A stretch of 64,000 nucleotides of DNA, from NCBI RefSeq assembly GCF_001423295.1, contig NZ_LMNG01000001.1, positions 829 to 64,828 on the forward strand, in the 5' to 3' direction. The stretch is from Methylobacterium sp. Leaf112 (lineage in GTDB: Bacteria; Pseudomonadota; Alphaproteobacteria; Rhizobiales; Beijerinckiaceae). The translations under genes and the position numbers were made by a program. The notes beneath the pieces were generated by a model. It ran no database searches and was not told the DNA's origin. It was given only the letters and a program-made list of their open reading frames with translations. Below are positions 38,473 to 64,000 of this stretch, one piece after another; the stretch's first letter is position 1, and each line of letters begins with the position of its first letter.

Positions 38473-40284
38473 CTACAGGCGGACGGTGCCCGCGCGGATC
38501 GCCCCGAACAGGGCCGGATCGAGGGGGCGGTAGCCGCCCTCGCGGTCGAGGTAGAGCGGATCGGCGATCCGGGCCGGGTCGAAGCCCTCGGCCGCCAGCA
38601 CGGTCTTCTTCTGCTTGAAGGTCTCCGTGTGGGCGAAATCGGCCACGATCCGCAGCACCAGGGGCCGGGCATAGGCCGGCAGGCGTGCGGTCAGGGCGGC
38701 GTGCAGGGCGGCGAGGTCGAAGCCAGGCCCGATGGTCAGGGCGGCCATGCCGGCACGCCCTTCCGCACCCGGCACGGCGACGCCGTAGACGCTGGCCTCG
38801 ATCACGCCGGGGCAGTGGCCCAGGGCCTCGGCCACCTCGGTGGTGGCGACGTTCTCGCCCTTCCAGCGGAAGGTGTCGCCGATCCGGTCGACGAAGTAGA
38901 AGAACCCCTGGGCGTCCCGGCGCATGAGGTCGCCGGTCCGCATCCAGGCGTCCCCGGGGGCGAGCACGTCGCGTAGGATCTTGGCGCTGGTCTCGCCCGC
39001 GCTCGTGTAGCCCTCGAAGCTGTGCTCGGCCTTGGCCGAGAGCCGGCCCAGGAGCTCGCCCGCCTCGTCGGGCCCGGCCGGCACGCAGCGCCCGGCGGCG
39101 TCGCGCAGGGGCAGTCCCGTCTCGACGTCGTGCCGCACGATGAGGGCGGGCGAGCGCCGGGCGAGGAAGGGCGGCACGCGGCCAACGGCGCCGGGCTTGC
39201 CCTCGACGTTGTAGAGCGAGACCGTCCCTTCCGTGGCCGCGTAGAATTCGAGGATGCGCGGCACGGCGAAGCGCTCCGAAAAGCGCGTCCACACGTCCGG
39301 CCGCATCCCGTTGCCGGTGCACAGACGCAGGGTGTGGCGGCCCTCGAACGGGTCGGGCGGGGCCGCCGCGAGGTAGCGGCACAATTCGCCGATATACTGG
39401 AACAGGGTGCACCGGGTCTCGACGACGTCGCGCCAGAAGCGGCTCGCCGAGAACTTCTCCCGGATCACCACCGCGCCGCCGCCGACGAGCACGCTGCCGG
39501 GCGCCACCACGCCGCCGACGCTGTGGTAGAGCGGCAGGCAATTGTACATCCGGTCGTCGGGCGTCGGGTCGACGAGGCCGGCGAACCAGTGGGTCCACAT
39601 CATCACGCGGTGGTGGCTCACCCGCGCGGCCTTCGGCAGGCCGGTGGTGCCGGAGGTGTAGATGAGCAGGGCCTCGTCGCGGACGCCGACGGCGGGGGCT
39701 TCGCCGGGTTCGAGGGGGGCACCGGACAGCGTTTCGGACTCTTCCGCGAGGGACCCCGCCCCCGGTCCCTGCCACAGGATCGCGGGCGCCGCCTCCAGAT
39801 GCGGCGCGGCGCTCGCCCAGGCCGCGGCCAGAGCCGTCTCGACGATGGCGAGGCGGGGGGCCGCCACCGTGACGCAATGGGCGAGGCCGCGATCGCGCAG
39901 GTTGGTGTTGAGCAGGGCGACGCGCACGCCGACGCGGGTCAGGCCGAGCCAGATCGCGAGGTAATCCGGCCGGTTGGTCATGAGCAGGGCGACGGTCTCG
40001 CCCTTGGCGAGGCCCCGGCCGAGGGCCCAGCGGGCGTAGCGGTTCTGGCGTGCCGCGAGGTCCGCGTGGCTCAGGGTCTCGTCGGTGCCGATCAGCGCCG
40101 GCGCGGCGCCGTAACGCGCGGCGAGTTCGTCGACGACGCGCGGGAAGGTGCGCTCGGGCTCGGCCTCGATGCGCGCCGTGCGGGCGAGGGCCGCGACCCA
40201 GCCGGACGTGGCCGAGGGCGGGCGGGGCGCAGGCGCAAGCGGGATGGCGGCCGACGGAGGCTGCGGCGCGGCGCCGGACCTCAT
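38473..40284 (-). CDS. FATP/VLACS-type acyl-CoA synthetase
   Basis: 603 residues from ATG 40284. AMP-forming adenylating enzyme: ALLIYTSGTTGLPKAARVSH (P-loop), EFYAATEGTVSLYNVEGKPG, WMRTGDLMRRDAQGFFYFVD, RIGDTFRWKGENVATTEVAE, and a C-terminal ETFKQKK with the catalytic Lys. The R-x-G-D-T-F-R-W-K-G-E-N motif and the overall architecture place it with fatty-acid transport protein (SLC27-like) very-long-chain acyl-CoA synthetases. The start overlaps the MetA-like stop as ATGA, so the two are coupled, an uncommon pairing. An ORF running through both genes on this strand is a GC artefact. Confidence 0.88.
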   Translation of the reverse strand: MRSGAAPQPPSAAIPLAPAPRPPSATSGWVAALARTARIEAEPERTFPRVVDELAARYGAAPALIGTDETLSHADLAARQNRYARWALGRGLAKGETVALLMTNRPDYLAIWLGLTRVGVRVALLNTNLRDRGLAHCVTVAAPRLAIVETALAAAWASAAPHLEAAPAILWQGPGAGSLAEESETLSGAPLEPGEAPAVGVRDEALLIYTSGTTGLPKAARVSHHRVMMWTHWFAGLVDPTPDDRMYNCLPLYHSVGGVVAPGSVLVGGGAVVIREKFSASRFWRDVVETRCTLFQYIGELCRYLAAAPPDPFEGRHTLRLCTGNGMRPDVWTRFSERFAVPRILEFYAATEGTVSLYNVEGKPGAVGRVPPFLARRSPALIVRHDVETGLPLRDAAGRCVPAGPDEAGELLGRLSAKAEHSFEGYTSAGETSAKILRDVLAPGDAWMRTGDLMRRDAQGFFYFVDRIGDTFRWKGENVATTEVAEALGHCPGVIEASVYGVAVPGAEGRAGMAALTIGPGFDLAALHAALTARLPAYARPLVLRIVADFAHTETFKQKKTVLAAEGFDPARIADPLYLDREGGYRPLDPALFGAIRAGTVRL

Positions 40285-41276
40285 CGGACAGCCCGGCTGT
40301 CGGCGCGGTGGCGGGCGACGTAGGCGACCCAGTTGCGGAACAATCGGTCCGCGTCGTCCGGCCAGGCGGGGGGGCGGAGCGGCGTGTCGGCGAGGTTCGG
40401 AAACGCCGCGAACAGGTCCGGCCGGCGTTCGGCCGCGGCCCGGCGGGCGAAAGCGTCGAGGCGGGCGGCGGCGGCGTCCGAGAAGTAGTTCTCCGGCAGG
40501 GCGGGCAGGGTGGCGCGCTGGCCGTCGAGGAAGCGGAAGACATCGCGGCGGTACTCGCGCGCGAGGCTCGCGGTGTCGTATTCGGGATGGCCCTGGAGGA
40601 ACACCAGCAGGCTGCCGGCCTCGCGCACGAACAGGTCGACCCCGATGGCGTCTGAGCGCCGCAGCACGGTGTAGCCCGCCGCCACGAGCTCGTCCTCCGG
40701 CAGGTCGTTCCAGCGCGAATGCGGCACCGCGACGGAGTCCGGCAGGCCCGCGAGCAGGGGATGGGGCGTGCACGCGCACGGGTAGACGCCGGAGAGCTTG
40801 GCGGTGCGGGGGCGGCGCCGGATGCCGTCGCGGTGGAGCACCGCCGCGTGCGAGGCGAGGCAGGAGAACAGGGTCGAGACCGTGTTCTCCGCCGCCCAAT
40901 CCACCACGGCGCTCAAGGGAGCGTAGAACGGCTCGTCCTCGAGATGCGGGGCGACGGGCTCGCACCCCGTCACCACGAGGGCGTCGAGCCCCGCCCCGGG
41001 GAGCGCGCGATGGGATTCGTAGTGGGCCCGCGCGTGCGCCGCCGCGAGGCCCGCGCGGGGGAGGTCGCGGAACGCGAACAGACTGAGCATCGCCTGCGGG
41101 CCGACGAGGCGCCGGAACTGCCGCTCGGTCTGGAGGAAGGCGGCGTCCGGCATGTTGTTGAGGAGGCCGATCCGCAGGGGCGGCACGGGGACCGCCCGCG
41201 ACGGCATGTCCGCGCGGAGCCCCGAACCGTCGCCCGGGCGGGAGGAGGGGACTTCGGAAGGAGCGTGATCCAGCAT
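40281..41276 (-). CDS. Homoserine O-acyltransferase of the MetA family
   Basis: 331 residues from ATG 41276. MetA/HTS (glutamine-amidotransferase-like) fold: IGLLNNMPDAAFLQTERQFR, nucleophile C139 in TLFSCLASHAAVLH, PHSRWNDLPEDEL, and the His/Glu pair in VFLQGHPEYDTASLAREYRR. Transfers a succinyl or acetyl group to homoserine in methionine synthesis. The nucleophile context differs from the E. coli MetA W-A-A-Q, so acyl donor preference cannot be read. It lies 36 bp after metY and overlaps the acyl-CoA synthetase start by four bases. Confidence 0.83.
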   Translation of the reverse strand: MLDHAPSEVPSSRPGDGSGLRADMPSRAVPVPPLRIGLLNNMPDAAFLQTERQFRRLVGPQAMLSLFAFRDLPRAGLAAAHARAHYESHRALPGAGLDALVVTGCEPVAPHLEDEPFYAPLSAVVDWAAENTVSTLFSCLASHAAVLHRDGIRRRPRTAKLSGVYPCACTPHPLLAGLPDSVAVPHSRWNDLPEDELVAAGYTVLRRSDAIGVDLFVREAGSLLVFLQGHPEYDTASLAREYRRDVFRFLDGQRATLPALPENYFSDAAAARLDAFARRAAAERRPDLFAAFPNLADTPLRPPAWPDDADRLFRNWVAYVARHRADSRAVR

Positions 41277-41312
41277 CGCGACGGCAACTCCGGGGCGAAC
41301 GGTGAGGGGCGC

Positions 41313-42605
41313 TCAGGCCGCGTGGGCGAGGGCGGTCGCGGCCCGGAGCGCCTGATCGAGATCGGCGGCGATGTCGTCGATGTGCTCGATGCCGACGCTG
41401 ATGCGGATCATCTCGGGGAACACGCCGGCCGTGCGCTGCTCCTCCGGCGTCATCTGCCGGTGGGTGGTCGAGGCCGGGTGGCAGGCAAGCGACTTGGCGT
41501 CGCCGATGTTGACGAGGCGTTTGACCAGCCTGAGGGCGTCGTAGAACGCCTTGCCGGCCGTGAAGCCGCCGTGCAGCCCGAAGGTGAGCAGGGACGAGCC
41601 CTCGCCGCCGAGGTACTTCCGCGCCATGGCGTGGTGCGGGCTCTCGGGGAAGCCGGCGTAGTTCACCCAGGCGACGCCCGGATGGGCGCGCAGGAATTCG
41701 GCGACCTTGCGGCCGTTGGCGACGTGGCGCTCCACGCGCAGGGCCACGGTCTCGATGCCCTGGAGCAGCAGGAACGCGGAGAGCGCCGGCAGCACGGCGC
41801 CGGTGGTGCGCTGGTAGACGCTGCGGGCGCGGGCGACGAAGGCGCCCTTGCCGAAATGCGTCGCGTAGACGAGGCCGTGATAGGACACGTCCGGCACCGA
41901 GAACATCGGGAACCGCTCCGCCTGCGCCGCCCAGTCGAACCGGCCGGAATCGACGATGATGCCGCCCATGGTGGTGCCGTGGCCGCCCATGAACTTCGTC
42001 AGCGAGGCAATGACGATGTCGGCGCCGTGATCGATGGGGCGCAGGAGGATCGGCGTCGCCACGGTGTTGTCGACCACCAGGGGCACGCCCCGGGCATGCG
42101 CGACGGCGGCCAGCGCCTCGATATCGCAGATGTTGCCGGCGGGGTTGCCGATGGATTCGCAGTAGACCGCACGGGTGTCGTCGTCGATGAGCTTGGCGAT
42201 CTCGGCCGGATCGTCGCTCGCGGCGAAGCGGCACTGGATGCCCTGGCGCGGCAGCACGTGGGCCAGCAGCGTGTGCGTGGTCCCGTAGAGCTGGGGCACG
42301 GAGACGATGTTGCCGCCGTGGTCGGCCAGCGTCGCGAGGGCGTAGTGCAGGGCGGCCTGGCCCGAGGCCACGGCCAAAGCCGCGTGCCCGCCCTCGAGTT
42401 CGGCCACGCGCTTCTCCAGCACGGCCACCGTCGGGTTGGCGATGCGGCTGTAGCGGTAGCCCTCCTCTTCGAGGTTGAACAGCGCCGCGCCGTGATCGGC
42501 GCTGTCGAAGCTGTAGGCCACGCTCTGGTAGATCGGGACCGCCACGGCATGCGTGGTCGGATCGTGATCGAAGCCGGCATGGACGGCGATGGTTTCACTG
42601 CGCAT
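41313..42605 (-). CDS. metY: O-acetyl/O-succinylhomoserine sulfhydrylase
   Basis: 430 residues from ATG 42605. Cys/Met-metabolism PLP enzyme: AVPIYQSVAYSFDSADHGAA, YRYSRIANPTVAVLEKRVAE, ALAVASGQAALHYAL, QLYGTTHTLLAHVLPRQGI, PLLVVDNTV-type loop VPLVVDNTVATPILLRP, and the PLP-binding Lys in VIASLTKFMGGHGTTMGGII. The about 430-residue length and internal insert mark O-acetylhomoserine sulfhydrylase (MetY) rather than the shorter MetB/MetZ. Directly sulfhydrylates activated homoserine supplied by the MetA-like product downstream. Confidence 0.9.
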   Translation of the reverse strand: MRSETIAVHAGFDHDPTTHAVAVPIYQSVAYSFDSADHGAALFNLEEEGYRYSRIANPTVAVLEKRVAELEGGHAALAVASGQAALHYALATLADHGGNIVSVPQLYGTTHTLLAHVLPRQGIQCRFAASDDPAEIAKLIDDDTRAVYCESIGNPAGNICDIEALAAVAHARGVPLVVDNTVATPILLRPIDHGADIVIASLTKFMGGHGTTMGGIIVDSGRFDWAAQAERFPMFSVPDVSYHGLVYATHFGKGAFVARARSVYQRTTGAVLPALSAFLLLQGIETVALRVERHVANGRKVAEFLRAHPGVAWVNYAGFPESPHHAMARKYLGGEGSSLLTFGLHGGFTAGKAFYDALRLVKRLVNIGDAKSLACHPASTTHRQMTPEEQRTAGVFPEMIRISVGIEHIDDIAADLDQALRAATALAHAA

Positions 42606-43033
42606 GGAGCGTGTCCGTCTCGGCACGATGAGCTCGGCGACCTCACAGCAAGGTGCAGGCCAAGCTTTTGCGCGTCGAATCGGGACATATCATTGACAAA
42701 GACGATGAACGGAAACGCGTCGAAGACTTGGTTAAATCTTCCTTCTCGCATGAGGCGCGTTCGCCGATCCGCGACGACCCGCCGGCCGCCGACTCGCGGG
42801 GGCCTGTCGTCCTTCCGGATTCGACCGTCCCGTGTCGGAACGGTCCCGATGGGGCGAGAGTCTTGATTTGCGACAACTGCGACCGGTCATGGTTTAAGCT
42901 TTGCGATCTCTGTTCATCCATTAAGTATCCGGCGAATGCGGACTTGCCGTGGCGTGGAACTATGGCATTTGCTTTCGCAACAGCCTCGTGACGATCACGA
43001 GTGCCGATCCGATCGTGGTGTGGGAGAGCGCGT
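42606..43033. other. Divergent intergenic region between metY and the cupin gene
   Basis: About 430 bp, more AT-rich than its surroundings. It must contain the promoters of the methionine operon (minus) and the cupin/aminotransferase genes (plus). A SAM-II riboswitch was looked for on the minus strand and not found. No convincing gene. Confidence 0.5.
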
Positions 43034-43489
43034 GTGGCGACGAAACCGATCATTCCGTCCGTGACGTCCGTGGAGCTGCGGGCGGCCCCCATCGAGCCGG
43101 GCTGGATCCGGGTGGGCAACCCGCTCGCCCGCAACGCCACCCTGTCGCGCAGCGCCGACGGTCTCGCCAGCACCCTGGTCTGGGATTGCACCGCCGGCGA
43201 GTTCGAGTGGATCTACGACATCGACGAGACCATCTACTTCCTCGAAGGCTCGGCGACGATCTCGGACGGTCACAATCCGGCCAAGACCTACGGGCCGGGC
43301 GACGTGCTGTTCCTGCCCCACGGTTCGGTGTGCCACTGGCACGTCGAGACTTACGTCAAGAAGGTCGCGTTCTGCCGCCGGACCCTGCCGCGGCCCGCCG
43401 CCTTCGTGATCCGGGCGTTCGACCGCCTCGTCAGGATGATGAAGGGCTCCTCCGGCGGCTTCCAGGTCGGCCCCGCCAAGGCCGCCTGA
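43034..43489 (+). CDS. Cupin-domain protein (Cupin_3/DUF861 type)
   Basis: 151 residues from GTG 43034, preferred because GGGAGAG lies just upstream. A single beta-barrel cupin: ASTLVWDCTAGEFEWIYDID then ETIYFLEGSATIS (motif 1) and GPGDVLFLPHGSVCHWHVET (motif 2), as in the Cupin_3 family that includes ureidoglycine aminohydrolase-like proteins. Glu and His side chains could bind a metal. Reaction unknown. It is followed by an aminotransferase gene 47 bp downstream, so a role around amino-acid metabolism is possible. Confidence 0.82.
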   Translation: MATKPIIPSVTSVELRAAPIEPGWIRVGNPLARNATLSRSADGLASTLVWDCTAGEFEWIYDIDETIYFLEGSATISDGHNPAKTYGPGDVLFLPHGSVCHWHVETYVKKVAFCRRTLPRPAAFVIRAFDRLVRMMKGSSGGFQVGPAKAA

Positions 43490-43536
43490 GAACGCCGCCC
43501 CATCCCGCCTTCCCAGCCCGCCCGAGACCCCGAGCC

Positions 43537-44421
43537 ATGACGGCGCCCGATCCCGACACCCGGACCCATTTCGAGGAGACCTGGACCTACTTCGAGGAGG
43601 CCTGGCATCCCGGCAACGTCCGCATGATGGGGCCGCGCACGCATGGGGCGTGGCTCGGGTCGACGGTGTTCGACGGCGCGCGCGCCTTCGAGGGCGTGGC
43701 GCCCGACCTCGACCTCCACCTCGAACGGGTCAACCGCTCGGCGGTGGCCCTCGGGCTGAAGCCCAAGGTCGCGGTCGAACGCTGGGACGAACTGGTGCGG
43801 GAGGGATTGGCGCGGTTCCCGCACGATGCGGAACTCTACATCCGGCCGATGTACTGGGCCGAACTCGGATTCGCCGGCGGCGTGCGCTTCGACCCCGAGT
43901 CCACCAACTGGTGCCTGTCGCTCTACCACGCGCCGATGCCGGTGCCGACGGGCGTGCGGGCGACCCTCTCGCCGTTCCGCCGGCCGTCCATCGAGGTGGC
44001 GCCGGTGGATGCCAAGGCCGGCTGCCTCTATCCCAACGGCGCGCGGGCGCTGATGGAGGCGCAGGCGCGGGGCTTCGGCAATTGCCTCATGCGGGACGGG
44101 CTCGGCAATATCGCGGAATTCGCCAACGCCAACGCGTTCCTCGCCCGGGACGGCGTGGTGCACACGCCGGTGCCCAACGGCACGTTCCTCGCCGGCATCA
44201 CCCGGGCCCGGGTGATCGCGCTCCTGCGGGCGGACGGCGTCACCGTGGTGGAGCGGACCCTGTCGTACGACGATTTCCTCGCCGCCGACGAGGTGTTCAC
44301 GTCGGGCAACTTCGCCAAGGTCGCCCCCGTCACCGGCCTCGACGAGGTCCGCTTCGAGCCAGGCTCCGTGTTCCGCCGCGCCCGCGCCCTCTACTGGGAC
44401 TTCGCCCACGGGCGCCGGTAG
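43537..44421 (+). CDS. Branched-chain amino acid aminotransferase (class IV)
   Basis: 294 residues from ATG 43537. Fold-type IV PLP enzyme: STVFDGARAFEGVAPDLDLH, PLP Lys K160 in APVDAKAGCLYPNGA, and GNIAEFANANAFLARDGVVH with Glu194 holding the pyridine nitrogen; the phosphate loop is FLAGITRARVIALL. Probably transaminates Leu, Ile or Val, or a related keto acid. Faces the acetolactate-synthase-like gene tail to tail across 10 bp, a thematic but not operonic link to branched-chain metabolism. It may not be the main IlvE of the cell. Confidence 0.85.
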   Translation: MTAPDPDTRTHFEETWTYFEEAWHPGNVRMMGPRTHGAWLGSTVFDGARAFEGVAPDLDLHLERVNRSAVALGLKPKVAVERWDELVREGLARFPHDAELYIRPMYWAELGFAGGVRFDPESTNWCLSLYHAPMPVPTGVRATLSPFRRPSIEVAPVDAKAGCLYPNGARALMEAQARGFGNCLMRDGLGNIAEFANANAFLARDGVVHTPVPNGTFLAGITRARVIALLRADGVTVVERTLSYDDFLAADEVFTSGNFAKVAPVTGLDEVRFEPGSVFRRARALYWDFAHGRR

Positions 44422-44431
44422 GCGGCGCGCC

Positions 44432-46123
44432 TCACCCGGCCGCCAACGCCTTCTCGCGAATCGCCGTGAGACTCAGGCCCGGAGAGATCGCGTCCGTCGC
44501 GATCTTGAGGTGGACGATGGCCGGCTGGCCCGAGGCGAGGGCCGCCGCGAACGCCGCCGGAAAGTCCTCCGTGCGCTCCACCGTGACGCCGAACCCGCCG
44601 AACGCGCGGGCATAGGCGGCGAAGTCCGGGTTGCGCAGGTCGGTGGCCGAGACCCGGCCGGGGAAATCCCGCTCCTGGTGCATGCGGATGGTGCCGTAGC
44701 TAGCGTTGTCGCAGACGATGCAGACGAGGGGCAGGTCGTACTGCACGGCAGTGGCGAATTCCTGCCCGGTCATCAGGAAGTCGCCGTCGCCCGCCAGCGC
44801 GATCACCGTGCGGTCGGGGTAGAGCCGCTTGATCGCCACCGCCGCCGGGACGCCGTAGCCCATGGAGCCCGAGGTCGGGGCGAAATGCGTGGCCGGGCGC
44901 CGGAAGCGGTAGAAGCGGTGGATCCAGGCGGCGTAGTTGCCGGCGCCGTTGCACAGGATCGCGTCCGCGGGCAGCGTTTCGCGCAGGTGCACCATCACGG
45001 CGCCGAGGTTCACGGCGCCGGGCTGCGGCGTCGCCGCCTCGCTCCACTCGAGGTACTCCGCGTGCCCGGCCCGGGTCTGGGCCACCCAGGAAGGGGGGGC
45101 TGCGGGCGCGGCGAGGCGCGCCAGGGCGGCGGCCATCCGGGTGGGCGCGGCGTTGATGGCGAGGTGCGGGACGTAGACCCGGCCGAGTTCCTCCGGGCCC
45201 GGATGCACGTGGACGAGACGGGTGGCGGGATTCGGGATGGCGAGGAGATCGTAGCCCTGGCTCGGGACCTCGCCGAGGCGCCCGCCCACCACGATCAGAA
45301 GATCGGCCGCCCGGGCGCGCGCGACGAGTTTCGGGTTGGCCGCCAACCCGAGATCGCCCGCATAGGCGGGGTGGAGCGGATCGAACAGCGGCAGGCGGCG
45401 GTAGCTCGTGGCGACGGGCAGGTCGAACCGGTCGGCGAAGGCGTGGATGTCGCGATACGCCGCCTCGCTCCAGCGGCTGCCGCCGAGCAGCAGGAACGGG
45501 CGCTCGGCCTGGGCCAGCAGCTGCGCGAGACGCTCCATCTCCTCCGCGCCCGGCGCCGCTTCGACGGCGACCCAGGGGGCGGCGAGCGGCCCGGTCGCCG
45601 TGTCCTTCAGCATGTCCTTGGGCAGGGCGAGAACCACCGGACCGGGCCGGCCGCCGGTGGCGGCGTGGAAGGCGCGCGAGACGTATTCGGGCACACGGGC
45701 CGCGTCGTCGATCTCGGCGGCCCATTTCGCGATCGGACCGAAGGCGGCGCGGTAGTCGATCTCCTGCCACGCCTCGCGGTCGCGCAAGGCCCGCTCGATC
45801 TGGCCGACGAACAGGATCATCGGCGTCGAGTCCTGCTGGGCCACGTGGATGCCCGCCGAGGCGTTGGTGGCGCCGGGGCCGCGGGTCACGAAGCACACGC
45901 CCGGCCGGCCCGTCGCCTTGCCGTAGGCCTCCGCCATCATCGCCACGCCGCCCTCCTGGCGACAGACCGTGACCTGGATGCGCGATTCGTAGAGGGCGTC
46001 GAGGACCGGCAGGAAGCTCTCGCCCGGCACGGTGAAGACGTGGTCGACGCCGTTGACGGCGAGCTGGTCGACCAGGGCCCGGGCGGCGGACCGGGGGGAC
46101 GCGTCTGAGATGGGGGTGGGCAT
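44432..46123 (-). CDS. Acetolactate synthase-like thiamine-pyrophosphate enzyme
   Basis: 563 residues from ATG 46123. Three TPP-enzyme domains: PYR with the catalytic Glu (VTVCRQEGGVAMMAEAYGKA, FVTRGPGATNASAGIHVAQQ), a central FAD/NAD-like domain (LLIVVGGRLGEVPSQGYDLL), and PP with the TPP/Mg motif LAGDGDFLMTGQEFATAV...CDNASYG. Resembles IlvB-family large subunits, but no small regulatory subunit gene is beside it; stand-alone homologues include other carboligases and decarboxylases, so the exact reaction is open. Confidence 0.83.
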   Translation of the reverse strand: MPTPISDASPRSAARALVDQLAVNGVDHVFTVPGESFLPVLDALYESRIQVTVCRQEGGVAMMAEAYGKATGRPGVCFVTRGPGATNASAGIHVAQQDSTPMILFVGQIERALRDREAWQEIDYRAAFGPIAKWAAEIDDAARVPEYVSRAFHAATGGRPGPVVLALPKDMLKDTATGPLAAPWVAVEAAPGAEEMERLAQLLAQAERPFLLLGGSRWSEAAYRDIHAFADRFDLPVATSYRRLPLFDPLHPAYAGDLGLAANPKLVARARAADLLIVVGGRLGEVPSQGYDLLAIPNPATRLVHVHPGPEELGRVYVPHLAINAAPTRMAAALARLAAPAAPPSWVAQTRAGHAEYLEWSEAATPQPGAVNLGAVMVHLRETLPADAILCNGAGNYAAWIHRFYRFRRPATHFAPTSGSMGYGVPAAVAIKRLYPDRTVIALAGDGDFLMTGQEFATAVQYDLPLVCIVCDNASYGTIRMHQERDFPGRVSATDLRNPDFAAYARAFGGFGVTVERTEDFPAAFAAALASGQPAIVHLKIATDAISPGLSLTAIREKALAAG

Positions 46124-48033: not shown

Positions 48034-48555
48034 TTGAGCAGTCCGGTCCGAGACGTCCCGCCGCTCGCCGGCGCCGCGCTGATGAAGCGGGCCATGCGGC
48101 GCCTCGCCGGCGGCGTCGTGGTGGTGACGGCGGGCTCCGGCGAGGAGCGCGTCGGCCTGACGGCGACCTCGGCGGTCTCGCTCTCCGTCGAGCCGCCGAC
48201 CATGCTGGTCTGCATCAACCGGGCGGTCTCGGCGTGGCCCGTCATCGCGCGCCGGCGGCACTTCTGCATCAACATCCTGGGGGCCGGGCACCAGGCGGTG
48301 GCCGAGCGCTTCGCCGGAATCGGCGGCCTCAAGGGCGCGGCCCGCTACGCCGATGCCGATTGGGTCGCCATGCCGTCGGGGGCCTCTGGCCTCGCCGGGG
48401 CACAGGCCATCCTCGACTGCACCCTCGACGAGGTGATCGAGCGCCACAGCCACGCGATCCTGCTCGGTGCCGTGGGCGAGGTGCGGATCGCGAACGAGGA
48501 CGCGGACGCGCTGGTCTACCGGCTCGGCCGCTTCGGCAGCCTGCCGCTGGCCTGA
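48034..48555 (+). CDS. Flavin reductase-like (FMN-binding split barrel) protein
   Basis: 173 residues from TTG 48034, chosen for the AGGAG eight bases upstream; GTG 48013 is an alternative. Flavin_Reduct domain: MKRAMRRLAGGVVVVTAG, RVGLTATSAVSLSVEPPTML, VCINRAVSAWPVI, FCINILGAGHQAVAERFAG, and LLGAVGEVRIANEDADALVY. Usually supplies reduced flavin to a two-component monooxygenase; no monooxygenase is nearby. Its last 40 bp overlap the tail of the convergent glycosyltransferase gene. Confidence 0.88.
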   Translation: MSSPVRDVPPLAGAALMKRAMRRLAGGVVVVTAGSGEERVGLTATSAVSLSVEPPTMLVCINRAVSAWPVIARRRHFCINILGAGHQAVAERFAGIGGLKGAARYADADWVAMPSGASGLAGAQAILDCTLDEVIERHSHAILLGAVGEVRIANEDADALVYRLGRFGSLPLA

Positions 48556-56437: not shown

Positions 56438-57991
56438 GTGCTCGTAAGGCTCTGCCTCGACGGGCGCGGCCCCCGCGGGTGGCACGCCGCCCTGGTCGCG
56501 CGCCTCGGTGCCCGGCCGGGCTGCCGCGTCGTGGTCGATGCCCGCTCGCGCGTGGCCGCGTGGCCCGCCAACGCCGACCGGCTGTTCCGGATCGAGACCC
56601 TGTTTCACGGCCTGCCGCCGGGCGGTCCCGCCGCCCGCCTAAACGAGGCCGAGGCGGCGGCTCTGCCGTGGCTGGCCTCGGCCGACCGTGCGGCCGTGCG
56701 GCCCGACTGCGTCATCGATCTAGGCGGCGATTGCGATGCGCCCGACGGCGTCCCGGTCTGGCGCCTCCTCTACGACGGACAACCCGGCGAGGCGGCGCTT
56801 CTGGCGAGCCTGCTCGCCGGCCGCGTGCCGGTCGCGAGCCTCGTCGCGGATGGCCGCGTCCTCTGCGAGGCGCGCCTCGGCACGGAAGTGCGGGGCGTCG
56901 TCCGCACCACCTTCGAGGACGGGCTCGCCCGGACGGTGACGATGATCGCCGCCGCCTTCGTGGGGGGCGCGGCGCCGATCCCCGCCGGTTCGCCGCCGCC
57001 CGCGTCCGGGGCGGGTCTCGGCGCCCGCGACCTCGCCCGGCGCGCGGCCCGCATCGCCGTGGGCAGCGCGGTGCGGCGCCTCTATCACCTCGGCTACCGC
57101 GCCCCGCATTGGCGCATCGGCTGGCGACGCCTCGACGGACCGGACCTCGTCGCCCTGGGCCGCCACCCGGATTCGGGCTGGCACGAACTCCCCGACGACG
57201 GACGACGCTTCTATGCCGATCCCTTCCCCATCGTGCACGCGGGCCGGTGCTGGCTGTTCGTGGAGGAGTACGATCACGCCTCGGCCAAGGGCGTGATCTC
57301 CGCGGTGGCCTTCGACGAGACCGGGCCCGTCGGCACGCCCGTCCGGGTGCTGGAGACCGCCCACCACCTGTCGTATCCGTTCGTCTTCGCGCGCGACGGC
57401 GCCGTCTGGATGGTGCCCGAGTGCTGCGCCGCCGGCACCATCGACCTCTACCGCGCGACGGACTTCCCCGGCGGCTGGGTCAAGGAGGCGACCCTCGTCG
57501 CCGACGTCGCGGCGAGCGACCCGACCCTGTTCGAGCACGATGGCCGCTGGTGGCTGTTCGCCACCGTGCGCGAGGCGCCGGCGGCGGCCCCCCTCGGGCA
57601 CGGCTCGTTCTCCGACGCGCTCTACCTCTGGAGCGCGCCGGATTTCCGCGGACCATGGGCGCCGCACCGGGCGAACCCGGTCCTCGTCGACACCGCCGCC
57701 GCGCGGCCCGCCGGCCGCGTCGTGGTGCATGACGGGCAGGCGGTGCGCCCGGTCCAGGATTGCAGCCGCGGTTACGGCTGGGCCCTCGGACTCATGCGGA
57801 TCGACCGCCTCGACGAGGACGGCTTCGCCCAGAGCTTCCTGTCGCGGATCGAGGCGGGCCCCCTCTGGCCGGGCTCGCGGCTGCACTCGCTCAACGCCGC
57901 CGGCGGCTTCGAATTCATCGACGGCTCCGCCCGGGCCCCGCGCGTCTCGCCCCGCCGGATGGTGAAGCGCGTCCGTCCCCGGAGCGCGTGA
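56438..57991 (+). CDS. Polysaccharide-cluster protein with GH43/GIPC-transferase-like beta-propeller
   Basis: 517 residues from GTG 56438 (GGGA upstream); the frame is open further but only over the 18-bp repeats. Residues 1-190 resemble the formyltransferase-like N-terminal half of this protein group. Residues about 240-500 form a five-bladed propeller with repeated W/F-x-D motifs: GRRFYADPFPIVHAGRCWLF, VEEYDHASAKGVISAVAFDE, YPFVFARDGAVWMVPE, ASDPTLFEHDGRWWLFATV, as in GH43-like domains and the glucosamine inositolphosphorylceramide transferase N-domain. The catalytic role (transferase versus hydrolase) is open. Likely takes part in decorating the polymer. Confidence 0.75.
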   Translation: MLVRLCLDGRGPRGWHAALVARLGARPGCRVVVDARSRVAAWPANADRLFRIETLFHGLPPGGPAARLNEAEAAALPWLASADRAAVRPDCVIDLGGDCDAPDGVPVWRLLYDGQPGEAALLASLLAGRVPVASLVADGRVLCEARLGTEVRGVVRTTFEDGLARTVTMIAAAFVGGAAPIPAGSPPPASGAGLGARDLARRAARIAVGSAVRRLYHLGYRAPHWRIGWRRLDGPDLVALGRHPDSGWHELPDDGRRFYADPFPIVHAGRCWLFVEEYDHASAKGVISAVAFDETGPVGTPVRVLETAHHLSYPFVFARDGAVWMVPECCAAGTIDLYRATDFPGGWVKEATLVADVAASDPTLFEHDGRWWLFATVREAPAAAPLGHGSFSDALYLWSAPDFRGPWAPHRANPVLVDTAAARPAGRVVVHDGQAVRPVQDCSRGYGWALGLMRIDRLDEDGFAQSFLSRIEAGPLWPGSRLHSLNAAGGFEFIDGSARAPRVSPRRMVKRVRPRSA

Positions 57992-57994
57992 GGC

Positions 57995-58759
57995 TCAGGC
58001 GGTGCTGCCGGCATCCACGGTGAGAACCGTGCCGGTGACGTTGCGGGCCTTCTCCGACATCAGGTAGGCGACGGCGTTGGCCACATCCTCCGGGTCGGCG
58101 AGGCGGCGCAGGGCGGCGCGGTTGGCCACCCGCCCGCGCTCGGCCGCGTCCATCCCCTCGGTCAGCGCCGTCTCGACGAAGCCCGGTGCCACGGCGTTCA
58201 CCGTGACCCCGAGCCGGCCGACTTCCCGTGCGAGTGAGCGGGTGAAGCCGATGGAGGCGGCCTTGGTGGCGGCGTAGACCGAGAGCGCGTTGTAGCCCGT
58301 GAAGGCGATGATCGAGCTCACGTTCACGATGCGCCCGGCGCCCGCCGCCATCATCCCCCGCACCACGTATTTGGTGAGCAGCATCGGCGCCACGGTGTTG
58401 ATGTGCACGAGGTCTTGGATCTCGCGGTCGGGCATGGTGGCGAGCAGCCCGGGCGTGCCGATGGCCGCGTTGTTGACGAGCCCGTAGATCGGGCCGTGCG
58501 CGGCGCGGATGCCCCGCACCAGGGGCTGCAGCGCCTCGGTCTGCCCGAGATCGCAGGCCGAGAAGTGCATCGCCCCGTCCGGGGCCGCCCGCGCCGCGGC
58601 CTCGAACGCCTCCGAGGGGCGGCGCGCGACGGCCACCACCCGGAAGCCCTCCGCCGCCAGGCCGGTGGCGATGGAAAGCCCGATGCCCCGGCTCCCGCCC
58701 GTGACGATGACGGTGCGCCGCTGGGTCGGGGTCGGTTCGGTCGGATTCGGCCCGGTCAC
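57995..58759 (-). CDS. FabG-like short-chain dehydrogenase/reductase
   Basis: 254 residues from GTG 58759, which overlaps the stop of the upstream adenylating-enzyme gene (GTGA). Classical SDR: TVIVTGGSRGIGLSIATGLA, LVNNAAIGTP, VNVSSIIAFTGYNALSVYAA then TKAASIGFTRS (Ser-Tyr-Lys triad), VNAVAPGFVETALTEGMD. NAD(P)H-dependent reduction of a beta-keto group, plausibly on a carrier-protein-bound intermediate given the neighbours. Last gene of a six-gene minus-strand operon. Confidence 0.9.
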   Translation of the reverse strand: MTGPNPTEPTPTQRRTVIVTGGSRGIGLSIATGLAAEGFRVVAVARRPSEAFEAAARAAPDGAMHFSACDLGQTEALQPLVRGIRAAHGPIYGLVNNAAIGTPGLLATMPDREIQDLVHINTVAPMLLTKYVVRGMMAAGAGRIVNVSSIIAFTGYNALSVYAATKAASIGFTRSLAREVGRLGVTVNAVAPGFVETALTEGMDAAERGRVANRAALRRLADPEDVANAVAYLMSEKARNVTGTVLTVDAGSTA

Positions 58760-60126
58760 GAGACGCCCCGCAGGAGCTTGCCGCCGGCCGAGATCGGCAG
58801 GGCGGGCACGAACTTCACGCTGACCGGGACCTTGTGCTTGGCCAGATGCGGCCGGCAATGGGCGATGATCGCCTGTTTGAGGCCGGCCGGATCGTCCGGT
58901 GCGCCGCCATCCTCCCGCAGGACGATCTCGGCCTCGACCACGGCGCCGAGGATCGGGTTCGGCCGCGGCCGGACCCGGGACATGGACACGCGGGGGTGGC
59001 TGTTGAGGATGGACTCGACCTCCTCGGGCTGAACCTTGGCGCCGCCGACGTTGATGATGCCGCTGCGCCGGCCGAGGAAGTGGTAGCGCGCGCCGCGCAA
59101 TTCCACGAGATCGCCGCTGTCGACGAACCCGTCCGCGTCGGTCAGCGCGGCGGCGTCGGCGCCGAGATAGCGCCGGCCCGTGCGCTGCGAGCGGATCTGG
59201 AGGGTCCCCTCGCGCACCACGATCTCGATGCCCGTGCGCGCGCCGACGAACCCGGCGGGAAACCCCTCGCGGCCGTCCTCGACGGTGAAGCCGACGCCGC
59301 CCTCCGTCGAGGCGTAGGCGTGGGCGATGCGCGCCTCAGGAAAGGCGGCGCGCATCTGGTCGAGGATCGCCTGGTCGGCGATCTCGCCGGAGAGGCGGGC
59401 GTAGCGCGGCGCGAGGCGGTCGAGGGCCGTGCTCATGAGGGCGAGGCGCCAGTGCGAGGGCGTGCCGAGGATGTGGGTGACCCCGGCCTCGGCCACTCGC
59501 ACGAGGTAGTCGCGGACCGGCTCGTCCGCCTCCGACAGGACGAGGGGCGTCGGCCCGAGGATCGCCCGCAGGAACACCTGGAGGCCGCCGTAGCGGCGGA
59601 TGTCGTAGAACGTGCTCCAGACCGTGCCGGGCTCGGGCGTCGCCGCGACGTTGATCCCGCCCGCGAGGCCCTCGAGGGTGTGGACCACGAGTTTCGGCGC
59701 ACCCGTGGTGCCCGAGGTGGCGAGCACCCATTCGGTCGGGCGGGGGGCCGGGAGCGGAGCGGCCAGGGCCGCCTCCGTGGCCTCCACGCAGGGCAGCCCG
59801 TTCAGCGCCACCCGGAACGGACAGGCCGCGTCCGTGACGCAGAGGTCGATCTCGGCGGTGGCGAGGATCTGTGCCGCTTCCTCTCCCGTGAGGCCCGGAG
59901 GGGCCAGCACCATCCGGCCCACCAGCCCGTCGAGGGCGAGCATCGCCAGGGCGGCGTTCATCTGGCCGCCCGTGGCGACGAGGACCGCGCGCCCGGCGAG
60001 GCGCTCCGTGAGGTCGGTCCGGGTCTGGGACGCGATCAGGGCGGGAAGCGACCGGCGCGCGGTTCGGTCCGAGAGGAACAAGCCGTCGAGGCTGCCCGCG
60101 CGCGTCAGGCGGTCACGCAGGGTCAT
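58756..60126 (-). CDS. AMP-binding adenylating enzyme (acyl-CoA/acyl-ACP synthetase-like)
   Basis: 456 residues from ATG 60126, four bases after the carrier-protein stop. Adenylation motifs in order: VLATSGTTGAPKLVVHT (A3), IAHAYASTEGGVGFTV (A5), DGFVDSGDLVELRG (A7), GRRSGIINVGGAKVQPEEVE (A8), LPISAGGKLLRG with the catalytic Lys (A10). About 50-90 residues shorter than typical fatty acyl-CoA synthetases, mostly at the N-terminus. It may load an acid onto the adjacent carrier protein or onto CoA. Substrate unknown. Confidence 0.87.
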   Translation of the reverse strand: MTLRDRLTRAGSLDGLFLSDRTARRSLPALIASQTRTDLTERLAGRAVLVATGGQMNAALAMLALDGLVGRMVLAPPGLTGEEAAQILATAEIDLCVTDAACPFRVALNGLPCVEATEAALAAPLPAPRPTEWVLATSGTTGAPKLVVHTLEGLAGGINVAATPEPGTVWSTFYDIRRYGGLQVFLRAILGPTPLVLSEADEPVRDYLVRVAEAGVTHILGTPSHWRLALMSTALDRLAPRYARLSGEIADQAILDQMRAAFPEARIAHAYASTEGGVGFTVEDGREGFPAGFVGARTGIEIVVREGTLQIRSQRTGRRYLGADAAALTDADGFVDSGDLVELRGARYHFLGRRSGIINVGGAKVQPEEVESILNSHPRVSMSRVRPRPNPILGAVVEAEIVLREDGGAPDDPAGLKQAIIAHCRPHLAKHKVPVSVKFVPALPISAGGKLLRGVS

Positions 60127-60130
60127 CGGC

Positions 60131-60388
60131 TCAGGCCGCGGCCGCGACGGCGGCGCGCTCGTAGAGTGCCACGAGGTCGCCCAGCGTCACCGGTAGGTCG
60201 GCGACCTCCAGGGTGCTGAACGGGTCGACGCCGACGAGATCCTCCATGCGGGCGACCAGCAGGGCGAAGCACAGGGAATCGAACGGCGTGTCGAGGAGCA
60301 CGAGGTCGTCGGTCAGCGGCGGCATCGCCTTGTCGTGATCGCGGGTGATGGCTTCGATTTCGGAAACGAGGGTGGAACGAACGCTCAT
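60131..60388 (-). CDS. Dedicated acyl/aminoacyl carrier protein
   Basis: 85 residues from ATG 60388. Four-helix PP-binding protein; the phosphopantetheine attachment Ser is S38 in LLDTPFDSLCFALLVARMED, with an acidic helix II. It lacks the standard ADSLD of housekeeping AcpP, so it is a specialised carrier. Start overlaps the hydrolase stop (ATGA). Given the ligase at 61374, it is the likely acceptor of an activated amino acid. It needs a phosphopantetheinyl transferase, not encoded here. Confidence 0.85.
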   Translation of the reverse strand: MSVRSTLVSEIEAITRDHDKAMPPLTDDLVLLDTPFDSLCFALLVARMEDLVGVDPFSTLEVADLPVTLGDLVALYERAAVAAAA

Positions 60389-61347
60389 GATGCTCTCCGG
60401 TGCGGGGATTGGGGGATGGTTCGGGCCGGATCGCCGCGCAGATGAGCGCCGAATGCGGCACCGATCTCCGCGAGGATCGGGCGCGCCGTGGGGATGAGGC
60501 GGCCGAGACCGTAGAAGTAGTGGATCATGCCCGCGTGGCAGGTGTGGACCACGGGGATGCGGGCCTCCGCGAGACGGGCCGCGTAGGCGGCGCCGTCGTC
60601 GCGCATGATGTCGTGGGACGCCGTGTGGATGTGGGCCGGGGGCAGGCCCGTCAGGTCCGGCTCGCGCCCGGGCGAGACGCGGGGATCCGCCACGACGTCC
60701 GCGACGCCGCAGGCGGCGATGTCGTGGCGCACGGTCTCGGCGTCGAGGAAGTGGCCGGTGGCGAAGGCGCGGTGGGACTCCGTCGCGCAGGTGAGATCGA
60801 GGACCGGGCAGATCAGGAGCTGACCGGCGATGGCCGCGCGGCCGCGCAACATCTGGGTCGTCCGCGCGGCGAGACCCGCGCCGGCCGAATCCCCGCCGAT
60901 CCCGAGGCGGCTCGCGTCGAGGCCGAAGGCTTCCGCCGCCTGCGCCACGTGGGCGAACGCCGCCACCGCATCCTCGATGGCGGCGGGGTAGGGGTGCTCC
61001 GGGGCGAGACGATAGGCGATGGCGACGACGCGGCAATCGGCCGAGTCCGCGAGGATCCGACAGATGGCGTCGTGGGTGTCGAGGTCCCCCGACACCAGGC
61101 CGCCGCCGTGGAAGAACACGAGCCCCGGCCCCGTCTCCCCGGCGTCGCGGGGCGCGTAGGCCCGCGCGGCGCACGGCCCCGACGGGAGATCGAGCACGAG
61201 ATCCCGCGCCGCGACGGCGACGGGCGTCGCGCCCGCGAGCTGGGCCAGCACCTGCTGGCCCTTGCGTCGTTCGGCGACGCCGCGCGCGCCAGTGCCGCCG
61301 AGCGCCATCATGTCGAGGAACCGCCGCACGGCGGGGTCGAGGCCCAT
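60385..61347 (-). CDS. Alpha/beta hydrolase (hormone-sensitive lipase family)
   Basis: 320 residues from ATG 61347. HSL-type esterase: oxyanion HGGG in GLVFFHGGGLVSGDLDTHDA, nucleophile in LGIGGDSAGAGLAA, acid Asp in SHDIMRDDG, and the His in TCHAGMIHYFYGLG. Cytoplasmic. In this operon it could release a product from the carrier protein or hydrolyse an ester or thioester. Its stop overlaps the carrier-protein start by four bases. Confidence 0.88.
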   Translation of the reverse strand: MGLDPAVRRFLDMMALGGTGARGVAERRKGQQVLAQLAGATPVAVAARDLVLDLPSGPCAARAYAPRDAGETGPGLVFFHGGGLVSGDLDTHDAICRILADSADCRVVAIAYRLAPEHPYPAAIEDAVAAFAHVAQAAEAFGLDASRLGIGGDSAGAGLAARTTQMLRGRAAIAGQLLICPVLDLTCATESHRAFATGHFLDAETVRHDIAACGVADVVADPRVSPGREPDLTGLPPAHIHTASHDIMRDDGAAYAARLAEARIPVVHTCHAGMIHYFYGLGRLIPTARPILAEIGAAFGAHLRGDPARTIPQSPHRRAS

Positions 61348-61373
61348 CACGCTCGCCTTCGATCGGGTTCGGT

Positions 61374-62306
61374 TCAGAGCGACAGGGCCGCCCGCACGGA
61401 GACCGGCCAATCGGCGATGGCCGCGCCGTGAGTCGCGAACATCGCCACGGCGAGGCGGTCCATGCCGAAGGCGACGCAGCCCGTATGGGCCGGCTCGCCG
61501 TCGGCGTGGCGCAGATCCCAGGTCGTGCCGAAATGCTCGCGGTGATAGTTGAAGCTCATGCAGGCGGTGCCGGCGGCCTCGCCGCGCAGCGGGATCAGCA
61601 GCTCGAACTTCAGGGCGGCCTCGAGCTGGCTGAACGCCTTGATCTGGCCGAGCCGCCCGAAGAACGGGTCGCTCGCCTGCTCGATCACGTAGGGCAGGCC
61701 GAGTTCGTCGGCGATCGCCGTGGCGCGGCCGATCCAGCGCTCGCGGAATTCAGCGACCTGATCGGGCGTGCCGATGACGACGTATTCGCGCATCCGGAAC
61801 GACTGGAGCCGGTCGAGGTGCGGGGAGGGCTCGCGGCGGAAGCAGTCGCAGGCGACGTCGAAGCGATAGCCCGCCGCCGGCACGGCGCCGCGCGCGGCCG
61901 CGATGGGATAGACCGGGTAGCAGGCCGCCGGGGTGAGCACGAGGTCGGCGGTCTCCAGGCCGCTGGTCCAGTCGCCGCCCTTCGCCTGGAGATCGGCCTT
62001 GGCGAGGATCTCCTGTTCGGTTCCCTCCAGGCACGAGACGCAGCCGAGCAGGTTCGGGAAGCTCTTGAGGTAGCCGTGCCGCTCCAGATGCGCCCGGCTC
62101 ATCACCGGCGGGAACCGGAACACCTCGGTGTCCGCCTCGCGCTTGGACGAAATCAGCGCGGTCAGGGCCTCCACCACCGATTCGTAGGCGCCGGTCCGGG
62201 CGTAGACGCCCTGCGCGTCCATGGGCCGGAACATCGTGTCGAACAGGGCGTCGAGGGGATCCGTGGCCGGGGGCGAGGCCGGGGCGCGGCCGACATTCAT
62301 GTTCAT
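61374..62306 (-). CDS. Amino acid:[carrier protein] ligase (SerRS-like class II synthetase homologue)
   Basis: 310 residues from ATG 62306. Class II aaRS catalytic core without any tRNA-binding domain. Motif 2 is FDVACDCFRREPSPHLDRLQ then SFRMREYVVIG; motif 3 is AHTGCVAFGMDRLAVAMF. Candidate zinc ligands C129, E174 and C277 are spaced as in atypical archaeal SerRS and in the bacterial amino acid:[carrier protein] ligases described from Bradyrhizobium and Agrobacterium. Those enzymes activate Gly or Ala and attach it to the phosphopantetheine of a small carrier protein instead of tRNA. Here the carrier is encoded two genes downstream. The specific amino acid cannot be read. Confidence 0.9.
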   Translation of the reverse strand: MNMNVGRAPASPPATDPLDALFDTMFRPMDAQGVYARTGAYESVVEALTALISSKREADTEVFRFPPVMSRAHLERHGYLKSFPNLLGCVSCLEGTEQEILAKADLQAKGGDWTSGLETADLVLTPAACYPVYPIAAARGAVPAAGYRFDVACDCFRREPSPHLDRLQSFRMREYVVIGTPDQVAEFRERWIGRATAIADELGLPYVIEQASDPFFGRLGQIKAFSQLEAALKFELLIPLRGEAAGTACMSFNYHREHFGTTWDLRHADGEPAHTGCVAFGMDRLAVAMFATHGAAIADWPVSVRAALSL

Positions 62307-62361
62307 GGGACTCGACTTTCGCGAAAGGCGGATTCGGCGGGAGGGCGACGGGTCTCGACGA

Positions 62362-63564
62362 TCAGTCGCGCAGGGAGGCGGCGACGGGCGCCATCAGGGT
62401 GGCGGTGGCGAGGTTGGCGACGATGCGGTCGTTGTGGATCATGATCGGCGCGGACAGCACGTCGCGCAGGTGCCGGCCGATGGCGAAGTCGCCGTCCTCC
62501 CGGTAGCCGGCGAGGCCGTTGGCCCGCATGGCGCTCATCACCGTCGAGACGGCGAGTTCCGAGACCTCGACCTTGAGCATCGTGATGGCGGTCTGGAAAT
62601 CCAGGGCCGAGAGGGCGGCGGGATCGCCGGTGGCGGCCTCGAACCGGTCGAGGCTCTGGCCGATGAGCGCGCGGGCCTGCTTCAGGCCGGACACGGCGCG
62701 GGTGTAGTGCAGGGCGCCGGGCGGGGCGACGCCGCCGGCCCCCCGCATGGCCGTGCGGGTGAAGGCCTGGGCCTTGTCGACGGCCCCGGCCGCGATGCCC
62801 GTCCAGGCGCTCGACCACAGGATGTGGGAGACCGGCGTCATGGTCTGGCTGTGGACGTCGGCGTAGCGGGCGGCGAGCACCTGCTCGGCCCGGCCGCGGG
62901 CGAGGAGGCGGAACCCGCTGCTGCAGGTGCCGCGCATGCCGAGCGTCTGCCAGCCGCCGAGGCGTTCCAGGGTGTAATCGGCCTTCAGGAAGACGCACAG
63001 CACCTGGTCCGACGCGGCGGCCTCGTCCGTCCGGCGCGCGACGGTGACGATGCCGTCGGCCTGCGCTCCGTAGGAGATCACCGTAGCGGCGCGGTCGAGG
63101 ACGATGTCCTCGCCGTCCCGCGCCACTGCGGCCGCCGAGACACGGACGTTGCCGCCGTTGTTTCCCTCGGTGGTGGAGGACGCCATGAGCAGCTGCTCGC
63201 TGGCGATGCGGCGCATCACCGCCTCGACCCAGGCCGCGCCGCGGCCGTGGCGGACGAGGCAGGCCACCTTGGTCTGGTGCATGGCGAAGATCATCGCCGT
63301 GGAGGCGCAGGCGCGTCCGAGGGTGTAGCAGATGTCGGCGAGCGCCTGCATCGAGGCGCCCTCGCCACCGAGATCGATGGGGATCGCCGCACCGAGCAGG
63401 CGGTGCGTCCGCATGGCGTCCCGGGCTTCGTCCGGAAAGCGGCCCTCGCGGTCCACCGCCTCCGCGTGGGCGGCGGCCACGGCCGCCACGGCGGCGGCCC
63501 GGGCCTGCAGATCGGCGGCCTCGCCCACGGCCCCGGCGGACATCGCTCCTTGCTGGATCGTCAT
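62362..63564 (-). CDS. Divergent acyl-CoA dehydrogenase family protein
   Basis: 400 residues from ATG 63564 (GAGG six bases upstream; ATG 63570 would add two residues). Acyl-CoA dehydrogenase fold: helical N-domain (LGAAIPIDLGGEGASMQALA, YTLGRACASTAMIFAMHQTK), middle beta-domain where the usual T-E-P-x-A-G-S-D loop reads STTEGNNGGNVRVSAAA, and C-terminal helices (AMRANGLAGYREDGDFAIGR then HLRDVLSAPIMIHNDRI). Probably binds FAD and oxidises a thioester-bound substrate; in this operon the likely substrate is the carrier-protein-bound amino acid. First gene of the operon. Confidence 0.85.
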   Translation of the reverse strand: MTIQQGAMSAGAVGEAADLQARAAAVAAVAAAHAEAVDREGRFPDEARDAMRTHRLLGAAIPIDLGGEGASMQALADICYTLGRACASTAMIFAMHQTKVACLVRHGRGAAWVEAVMRRIASEQLLMASSTTEGNNGGNVRVSAAAVARDGEDIVLDRAATVISYGAQADGIVTVARRTDEAAASDQVLCVFLKADYTLERLGGWQTLGMRGTCSSGFRLLARGRAEQVLAARYADVHSQTMTPVSHILWSSAWTGIAAGAVDKAQAFTRTAMRGAGGVAPPGALHYTRAVSGLKQARALIGQSLDRFEAATGDPAALSALDFQTAITMLKVEVSELAVSTVMSAMRANGLAGYREDGDFAIGRHLRDVLSAPIMIHNDRIVANLATATLMAPVAASLRD

Positions 63565-63879: not shown

Positions 63880-64000
63880 ATGAGCCCTGCTTTGGATACC
63901 ATTAACTATACAGATCGGACCATGTACCTCGCCAAGGGTATCCTGGCGCAGCAGTCGCAGGCGCGGGATTTCCAGCCCGAAGACCCCCTCGTCGACGTGG
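63880..64000 (+). CDS. Start of an unidentified gene, cut by the window edge
   Basis: ATG 63880 (a GGA lies about 9 bases upstream) opens a frame that runs off the window: MSPALDTINYTDRTMYLAKG then ILAQQSQARDFQPEDPLVDV. ATG 63922 (MYLAKGILAQQ) is an alternative start. Too short to assign. Divergent from the carrier-protein operon, so it could be a regulator or a further pathway gene. Confidence 0.5.
   Translation, partial: MSPALDTINYTDRTMYLAKGILAQQSQARDFQPEDPLVDV

Follow-up and report, generated by a model that had tools for sequence, protein, structure and literature searches.

What does Methylobacterium sp. Leaf112 make with a stand-alone amino acid:[carrier protein] ligase, and which carrier protein does this ligase load? 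The function of the carrier-bound amino acids formed by synthetase-derived ligases has been called unknown (PMC9437257). The ligase gene lies in a six-gene minus-strand operon at positions 57995-63564 of the window, by which we mean the whole stretch of 64,000 nucleotides analysed (contig NZ_LMNG01000001.1 of assembly GCF_001423295.1, forward-strand positions 829 to 64,828). We give a probability of about 60% to the reading that the operon belongs to a biosynthetic pathway whose genes are dispersed and which has two carrier proteins of its own, CP1, encoded divergently next to the operon, and ACP2, encoded within it. This reading builds on computed results, namely the ligase family, the orthology of CP1, the gene content and the co-occurrence of the modules. 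The ligase family is known; the surrounding pathway is undescribed as far as the open-access literature shows, and no described cluster of such gene content was found there.

The operon was read from the sequence, and the gene families were assigned using Pfam and NCBIfam. In the direction of transcription it encodes an acyl-CoA dehydrogenase (ACAD)-fold flavoenzyme (400 aa, 62362..63564; Pfam Acyl-CoA_dh_N, 6.6e-12), the ligase (310 aa, 61374..62306), a hormone-sensitive lipase (HSL)-type alpha/beta hydrolase (320 aa, 60385..61347; Abhydrolase_3, 2e-60; GDSAG and HGGG motifs), the carrier protein ACP2 (85 aa, 60131..60388), an AMP-forming acyl activating enzyme (456 aa, 58756..60126; PF00501, AMP-binding, 1.2e-16, and PF13193), and a FabG-like short-chain dehydrogenase/reductase (SDR; 254 aa, 57995..58759; adh_short_C2, 3.9e-53; TGxxxGIG and S-Y-K motifs). 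The successive junctions are a gap of 55 bp, a gap of 26 bp, a 4-bp overlap (ATGA), a gap of 4 bp and a 4-bp overlap (GTGA). The first-pass annotation, made from the letters alone, had described these six genes with their spacing and overlaps, all of which were confirmed. The arrangement is more than chance, since 15 of the 24 Methylobacterium genomes that carry a ligase of the same clade (clade 1, the Bll0957 type), and Bosea sp. Leaf344 as well, have the six genes in exactly this order and all in one direction. Among the named loci compared, the closest relative is that of Methylobacterium haplocladii, and the HSL-type hydrolase is likewise a cluster member in photosynthetic Bradyrhizobium. 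A scan for promoters and terminators detected none.

The ligase scored 453.6 bits against NCBIfam NF005479 (amino acid--[acyl-carrier-protein] ligase; cut-off 357), and its closest solved relative is Bradyrhizobium Bll0957 (PDB 3MEY/4H2S, 467 bits); the next kind of protein in the PDB search, type-2 seryl-tRNA synthetase (SerRS), reached just 65 bits. The match to the core of type-2 SerRS 3W3S (9.8e-17) identifies a class II synthetase core, of which the ligase covers residues 304-505 alone of the 527, the tRNA-binding N-terminal domain being absent. C129, E174 and C277, which we take to be the zinc ligands (Cys, Glu, Cys) of the structure papers, are invariant in 18 relatives and occur at the Bll0957 positions too. 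The carrier-recognition helix (FFGRLGQIKAFSQ) resembles that of Bll0957 and differs from the Atu-type helix of PDB 4H2W and of the second ligase clade; this comparison was based on the alignment of relatives and PDB sequences, and from the ligase tree we used the branch support (100/100 for the separation of clade 1 from other ligases) and not the helix labels. Judged by its sequence, the ligase is a member of the carrier-protein-aminoacylating family and not of the tRNA-charging one, as had been proposed from the missing tRNA-binding domain. Orthology to Bll0957, together with the report of Gly or Ala as the amino acid for this family (PMC5370406), suggests that the amino acid charged is probably glycine, alanine being less likely, and the earlier expectation of Gly or Ala was thus the right one. 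In B. diazoefficiens, where the ACAD gene (Bll0958) also adjoins the ligase gene, both Bll0957 and Bll0958 are expressed, and both are three-fold up in a phaR mutant (PMC10888616).

The 85-aa ACP2 had initially been taken for the private carrier of the ligase. If the ligase itself loaded ACP2, the six genes alone could make the product; ACP2 lies two genes from the ligase in the same tightly spaced operon, and the order kept in those 15 genomes points the same way. However, a second carrier gene, CP1 (PP-binding, 1.4e-07), starts at 63880 on the plus strand, 316 bp from the flavoenzyme gene and divergent from it. The window end cuts CP1 after its first 40 codons (63880..64000), and the gene, encoding 89 aa, runs on to window-equivalent position 64149 (L079:8709-8978). 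Its best PDB match is chain C of 4H2S (1e-19), the 'Aminoacyl carrier protein 1' co-crystallised with Bll0957, whereas ACP2 gave no significant match in the PDB search (0.044) and no Pfam match, and was recognised as a carrier protein by alignment, with a DSL motif invariant in 19 relatives. Carrier gene, flavoenzyme and ligase are contiguous in that order in 40/40 Methylobacterium loci. Second-clade ligases adjoin an Atu2571-type carrier, whose gene here too immediately precedes that of the flavoenzyme, and the recognition helix differs accordingly. Where the locus is broken up, ACP2 goes with the AMP-binding enzyme and the SDR and not with the ligase. Given the orthology of CP1 to the 4H2S carrier, the lack of any significant PDB match for ACP2 and the constant order of carrier, flavoenzyme and ligase, CP1 rather than ACP2 is the predicted substrate of the ligase. 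ACP2 was rejected as the carrier of the ligase, and we regard a six-gene, single-carrier scheme as very unlikely. Directly after CP1, beyond the window end and on the opposite strand (L079:9009-11965), lie GspF- and GspE-like genes, which by sequence resemble those of type II secretion.

CP1, flavoenzyme and ligase thus form one module (module A), and ACP2, AMP-binding enzyme and SDR another (module B). In the loci compared, module B behaves as one moving block that stands behind the hydrolase, inverted, or elsewhere in the genome; the AMP-binding enzyme always adjoins ACP2 and the SDR always adjoins the AMP-binding gene, and the AMP-binding enzyme is predicted to load ACP2. To describe how the modules are distributed, we counted ACP2 in genomes with and without a clade-1 ligase. 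Among 111 Methylobacterium genomes, ACP2 was present in 24/24 with the ligase and 1/87 without it; the figures were 23/23 and 3/374 in an order-wide sample of 397 genomes, and 3/3 and 4/354 (one of the four weak) in a class-wide sample of 357. In these samples coupling is therefore one-way: wherever the ligase module was found, module B was found too, and module B occasionally occurs alone. The first-pass annotation would have been refuted had the genes not stayed together; across families they do so, or at least are present in the same genomes. In three loci (L041, L042, L044), the hydrolase gene and an inverted SDR-AMP-ACP2 block are separated by a gene for an enoyl-CoA hydratase-like protein of 266 aa.

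Further genes follow the same distribution. A gene for a tandem-GNAT protein of about 300 aa was found in 24/24 Methylobacterium genomes with a clade-1 ligase and in 2/87 others; in Leaf112 it lies on another contig than the window. The protein has no Pfam, NCBIfam or PDB sequence match, including in a PDB search with the GNAT profile, and its predicted structure (pLDDT 91.5) is that of a tandem GNAT acyltransferase. In Rhodopseudomonas, Bosea, some Bradyrhizobium and a member of another order (L304), both modules, the GNAT gene and a set of accessory genes lie within about 20 kb, with individual members missing from some of these loci. The accessory set is present in the window at 38473-46123 and comprises an ALS-like thiamine pyrophosphate (TPP) enzyme (563 aa, 44432..46123, minus strand; NF006052, 884 bits, cut-off 539), which is clustered in other genera; a class IV aminotransferase (294 aa, 43537..44421, plus strand; NF009896, 467 bits, cut-off 262) and a cupin (151 aa, 43034..43489, plus strand; PF05899, 1.9e-19), both conserved neighbours; an O-acetylhomoserine (OAH) sulfhydrylase-type pyridoxal phosphate enzyme (430 aa, 41313..42605, minus strand; TIGR01326, 588 bits, cut-off 495), whose gene stands directly behind the ligase in three other loci (L149, L206, L292); a MetA-type homoserine O-acyltransferase (331 aa, 40281..41276, minus strand; NF003776, 401 bits, cut-off 358), again a conserved neighbour; and a FadD-type acyl-CoA/ACP ligase (603 aa, 38473..40284, minus strand; NF006134, 739 bits, cut-off 625), whose gene adjoins ACP2-AMP-SDR in Bradyrhizobium. 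Polysaccharide genes, encoding a flippase-like protein, glycosyltransferases, Wzz and related proteins, lie between the accessory genes and the six-gene operon. The small pathway envisaged at first thus stood as to its existence but not as to its extent, since the conserved pathway is about twice the size of the six-gene unit to which it had been confined.

Counted by genus in the order-wide sample, ACP2 is present in 7/7 genera with a clade-1 ligase, of 142 genera (hypergeometric 6e-10). Several points weigh against a single two-carrier pathway. This p-value, like the others for co-occurrence, ignores shared ancestry. ACP2 occurs without a clade-1 ligase in G083, G345, G296, G404, G685, G743 and G814, of which G345 (with a clade-2 ligase instead), G296 and G404 are the three from the order-wide sample; module B is thus not wholly dependent on module A. 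Accessory genes are missing from some of the loci examined, and polysaccharide genes were not seen at most Bradyrhizobium ligase loci, so their link to the cluster does not hold everywhere and what they contribute to the pathway is uncertain. Two functionally separate pathways, one of glycyl-CP1 and the other of acyl-ACP2, might merely share genome neighbourhoods, as would fit both the genomes in which ACP2, AMP-binding enzyme and SDR occur without the clade-1 ligase and the many in which the modules are mutually inverted or distant. Yet a clade-1 ligase without ACP2 was never found in any sample, even where Bradyrhizobium-type genomes retain the two modules far apart (1.4 Mb in G145), and several families have independent compact clusters that contain both modules. 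We therefore consider separate pathways rather improbable and keep to one pathway with two carriers.

What the flavoenzyme does to the charged amino acid bears on the chemistry of this pathway. Its AF2 model (pLDDT 85.7) has the ACAD fold, and Foldseek matched it to the monooxygenases DszC/TdsC (TM 0.81) and to medium-chain acyl-CoA dehydrogenase (MCAD; TM 0.77). The MCAD match, the Pfam family and weak NCBIfam matches to RedW and PigA would all fit an ordinary dehydrogenase whose substrate is an acyl group on a carrier, like prolyl-PCP (peptidyl carrier protein) for RedW and PltE, the amino acid then being other than glycine; the score against the RedW model, however, is 24.6 for a cut-off of 650. 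Nitrososynthase and DszC rank among the dehydrogenases in the profile search, and KijD3 too is among the monooxygenases ranked beside dehydrogenases in the structure and profile searches, which do not separate the two kinds of enzyme. In all 23 aligned relatives, the catalytic Glu of dehydrogenases is missing at both the YEGT and the helix-G positions; an invariant Asn-Asp-Arg (NDR) motif stands in its place, whereas a paralogue from the window included in the alignment carries YEGT. The invariant Asp of NDR could serve a dehydrogenase as an alternative base. A flavin reductase (173 aa, 48034..48555, plus strand; PF01613, 8.2e-34) is a possible partner of the flavoenzyme, and its orthologue directly adjoins CP1 in several other Methylobacterium genomes; none was found in the Bradyrhizobium ligase loci. 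Because the catalytic Glu is missing and glycine has no beta carbon, simple alpha,beta-dehydrogenation appears unlikely, and glycine, if it is the substrate, would most simply be oxidised at the nitrogen or at the C-N bond. An ordinary dehydrogenase with another amino acid is thus unlikely, though less so than the alternatives discussed above.

For the pathway as a whole, we infer the amino acid, all reaction steps and their order, the role of the GNAT protein, the acceptor and the product; the chemistry that the first-pass annotation had put forward is speculative. In module A, the ligase would adenylate glycine (less likely alanine) and load it onto the phosphopantetheine arm of CP1, and the flavoenzyme would oxidise the CP1-bound amino acid at the nitrogen or the C-N bond rather than at C-alpha/C-beta. 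Module B would start with a carboxylic acid, which the AMP-binding enzyme together with the FadD-type ligase (603 aa) would load onto ACP2 and the SDR would reduce there. The tandem-GNAT protein may then transfer one carrier-bound group to an acceptor, with the hydrolase releasing or editing. The homoserine acyltransferase, OAH-sulfhydrylase-type enzyme, TPP enzyme, aminotransferase and cupin could supply an amino-acid building block; for the homoserine enzymes, rhizobitoxine-like or fusaric-acid-like chemistry was considered, and we presume no more than a speculative likeness. The pathway would end in a small molecule that carries an acyl group, or in a decoration of the exopolysaccharide whose genes are interleaved. 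In its most specific form, a two-carrier Hyphomicrobiales pathway for a natural product or polysaccharide decoration in which glycine is charged, N-oxidised or oxygenated, and joined by the GNAT protein to a homoserine-derived or acyl block, the proposal is tentative, at a little under even odds; if true, Bll0957-type ligases would have a role that can be assigned to them for the first time. From the comparison come a predicted carrier for the ligase, a second carrier module that strictly co-occurs with it, and candidates for the acyltransferase and for the building-block set. Knockouts and in vitro assays can therefore target a defined gene list in cultivable laboratory bacteria, and this wider gene set offers a route to asking what these enzymes are for.

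Comparison with known systems divides the ligase pathways into a kind that has ACP2/AMP/SDR and GNAT and a kind that has a DUF1839 protein and a GH2-like protein. The Bradyrhizobium system of Bll0957 and aminoacyl carrier protein 1 is orthologous to the window in both ligase and CP1, but the window operon adds the HSL-type hydrolase, ACP2, AMP-binding enzyme and SDR, the last three of which most Bradyrhizobium keep elsewhere in the genome. The Atu2573/Atu2571-type system of Agrobacterium (PDB 4H2W, 2JQ4) resembles the window in that the carrier, ACAD and ligase genes follow one another, but differs in ligase clade, carrier and recognition helix, and DUF1839 and GH2-like genes follow where the window has ACP2/AMP/SDR. 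In second-clade Methylobacterium loci (L062-L078, e.g. L062:8114-13904), a DUF1839 protein and a GH2-like protein of 811 aa follow in 17/17, often with an alpha/beta hydrolase after them. The flavoenzyme is not obligatory in clade 2, since at one locus (L310, genome G629) no ACAD-fold gene was detectable near the ligase (at about 9529) and its carrier, which are of the clade-2 type. In butirosin side-chain assembly (BtrI, BtrJ, BtrO/BtrV, BtrH), an amino acid on a free-standing carrier undergoes flavin-dependent oxidation and is transferred to a glycoside. This resembles the proposed pathway in outline, but the ligase and transferase families differ, and we claim no membership by sequence. BtrH is named, and the papain-like fold of the DUF1839 protein given, in PMC10318531; the DUF1839/GH2-like set is a candidate carrier-to-glycan aminoacyltransferase. 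RedW, PltE and PigA, the prolyl-PCP dehydrogenases of pyrrole antibiotics, are likewise ACAD-fold enzymes acting on a carrier-bound amino acid, from which the window flavoenzyme is set apart by its low RedW score and lack of the catalytic Glu.

The gene order in Bosea sp. Leaf344 (L223) is nearly that of the window, including the polysaccharide genes, and its ligase is nested, on a long branch, among Methylobacterium ligases in the tree. This shared gene combination and the position of the ligase inside the Methylobacterium group suggest that the whole unit was horizontally transferred. Between the six genes and Wzz, the window also encodes a GINT1_N-domain protein (glucosamine inositolphosphorylceramide transferase-like, 4.9e-32; 56438-57991, plus strand), whose orthologues are found with the cluster in Bosea and also in L145 and L146, two genomes from another family.

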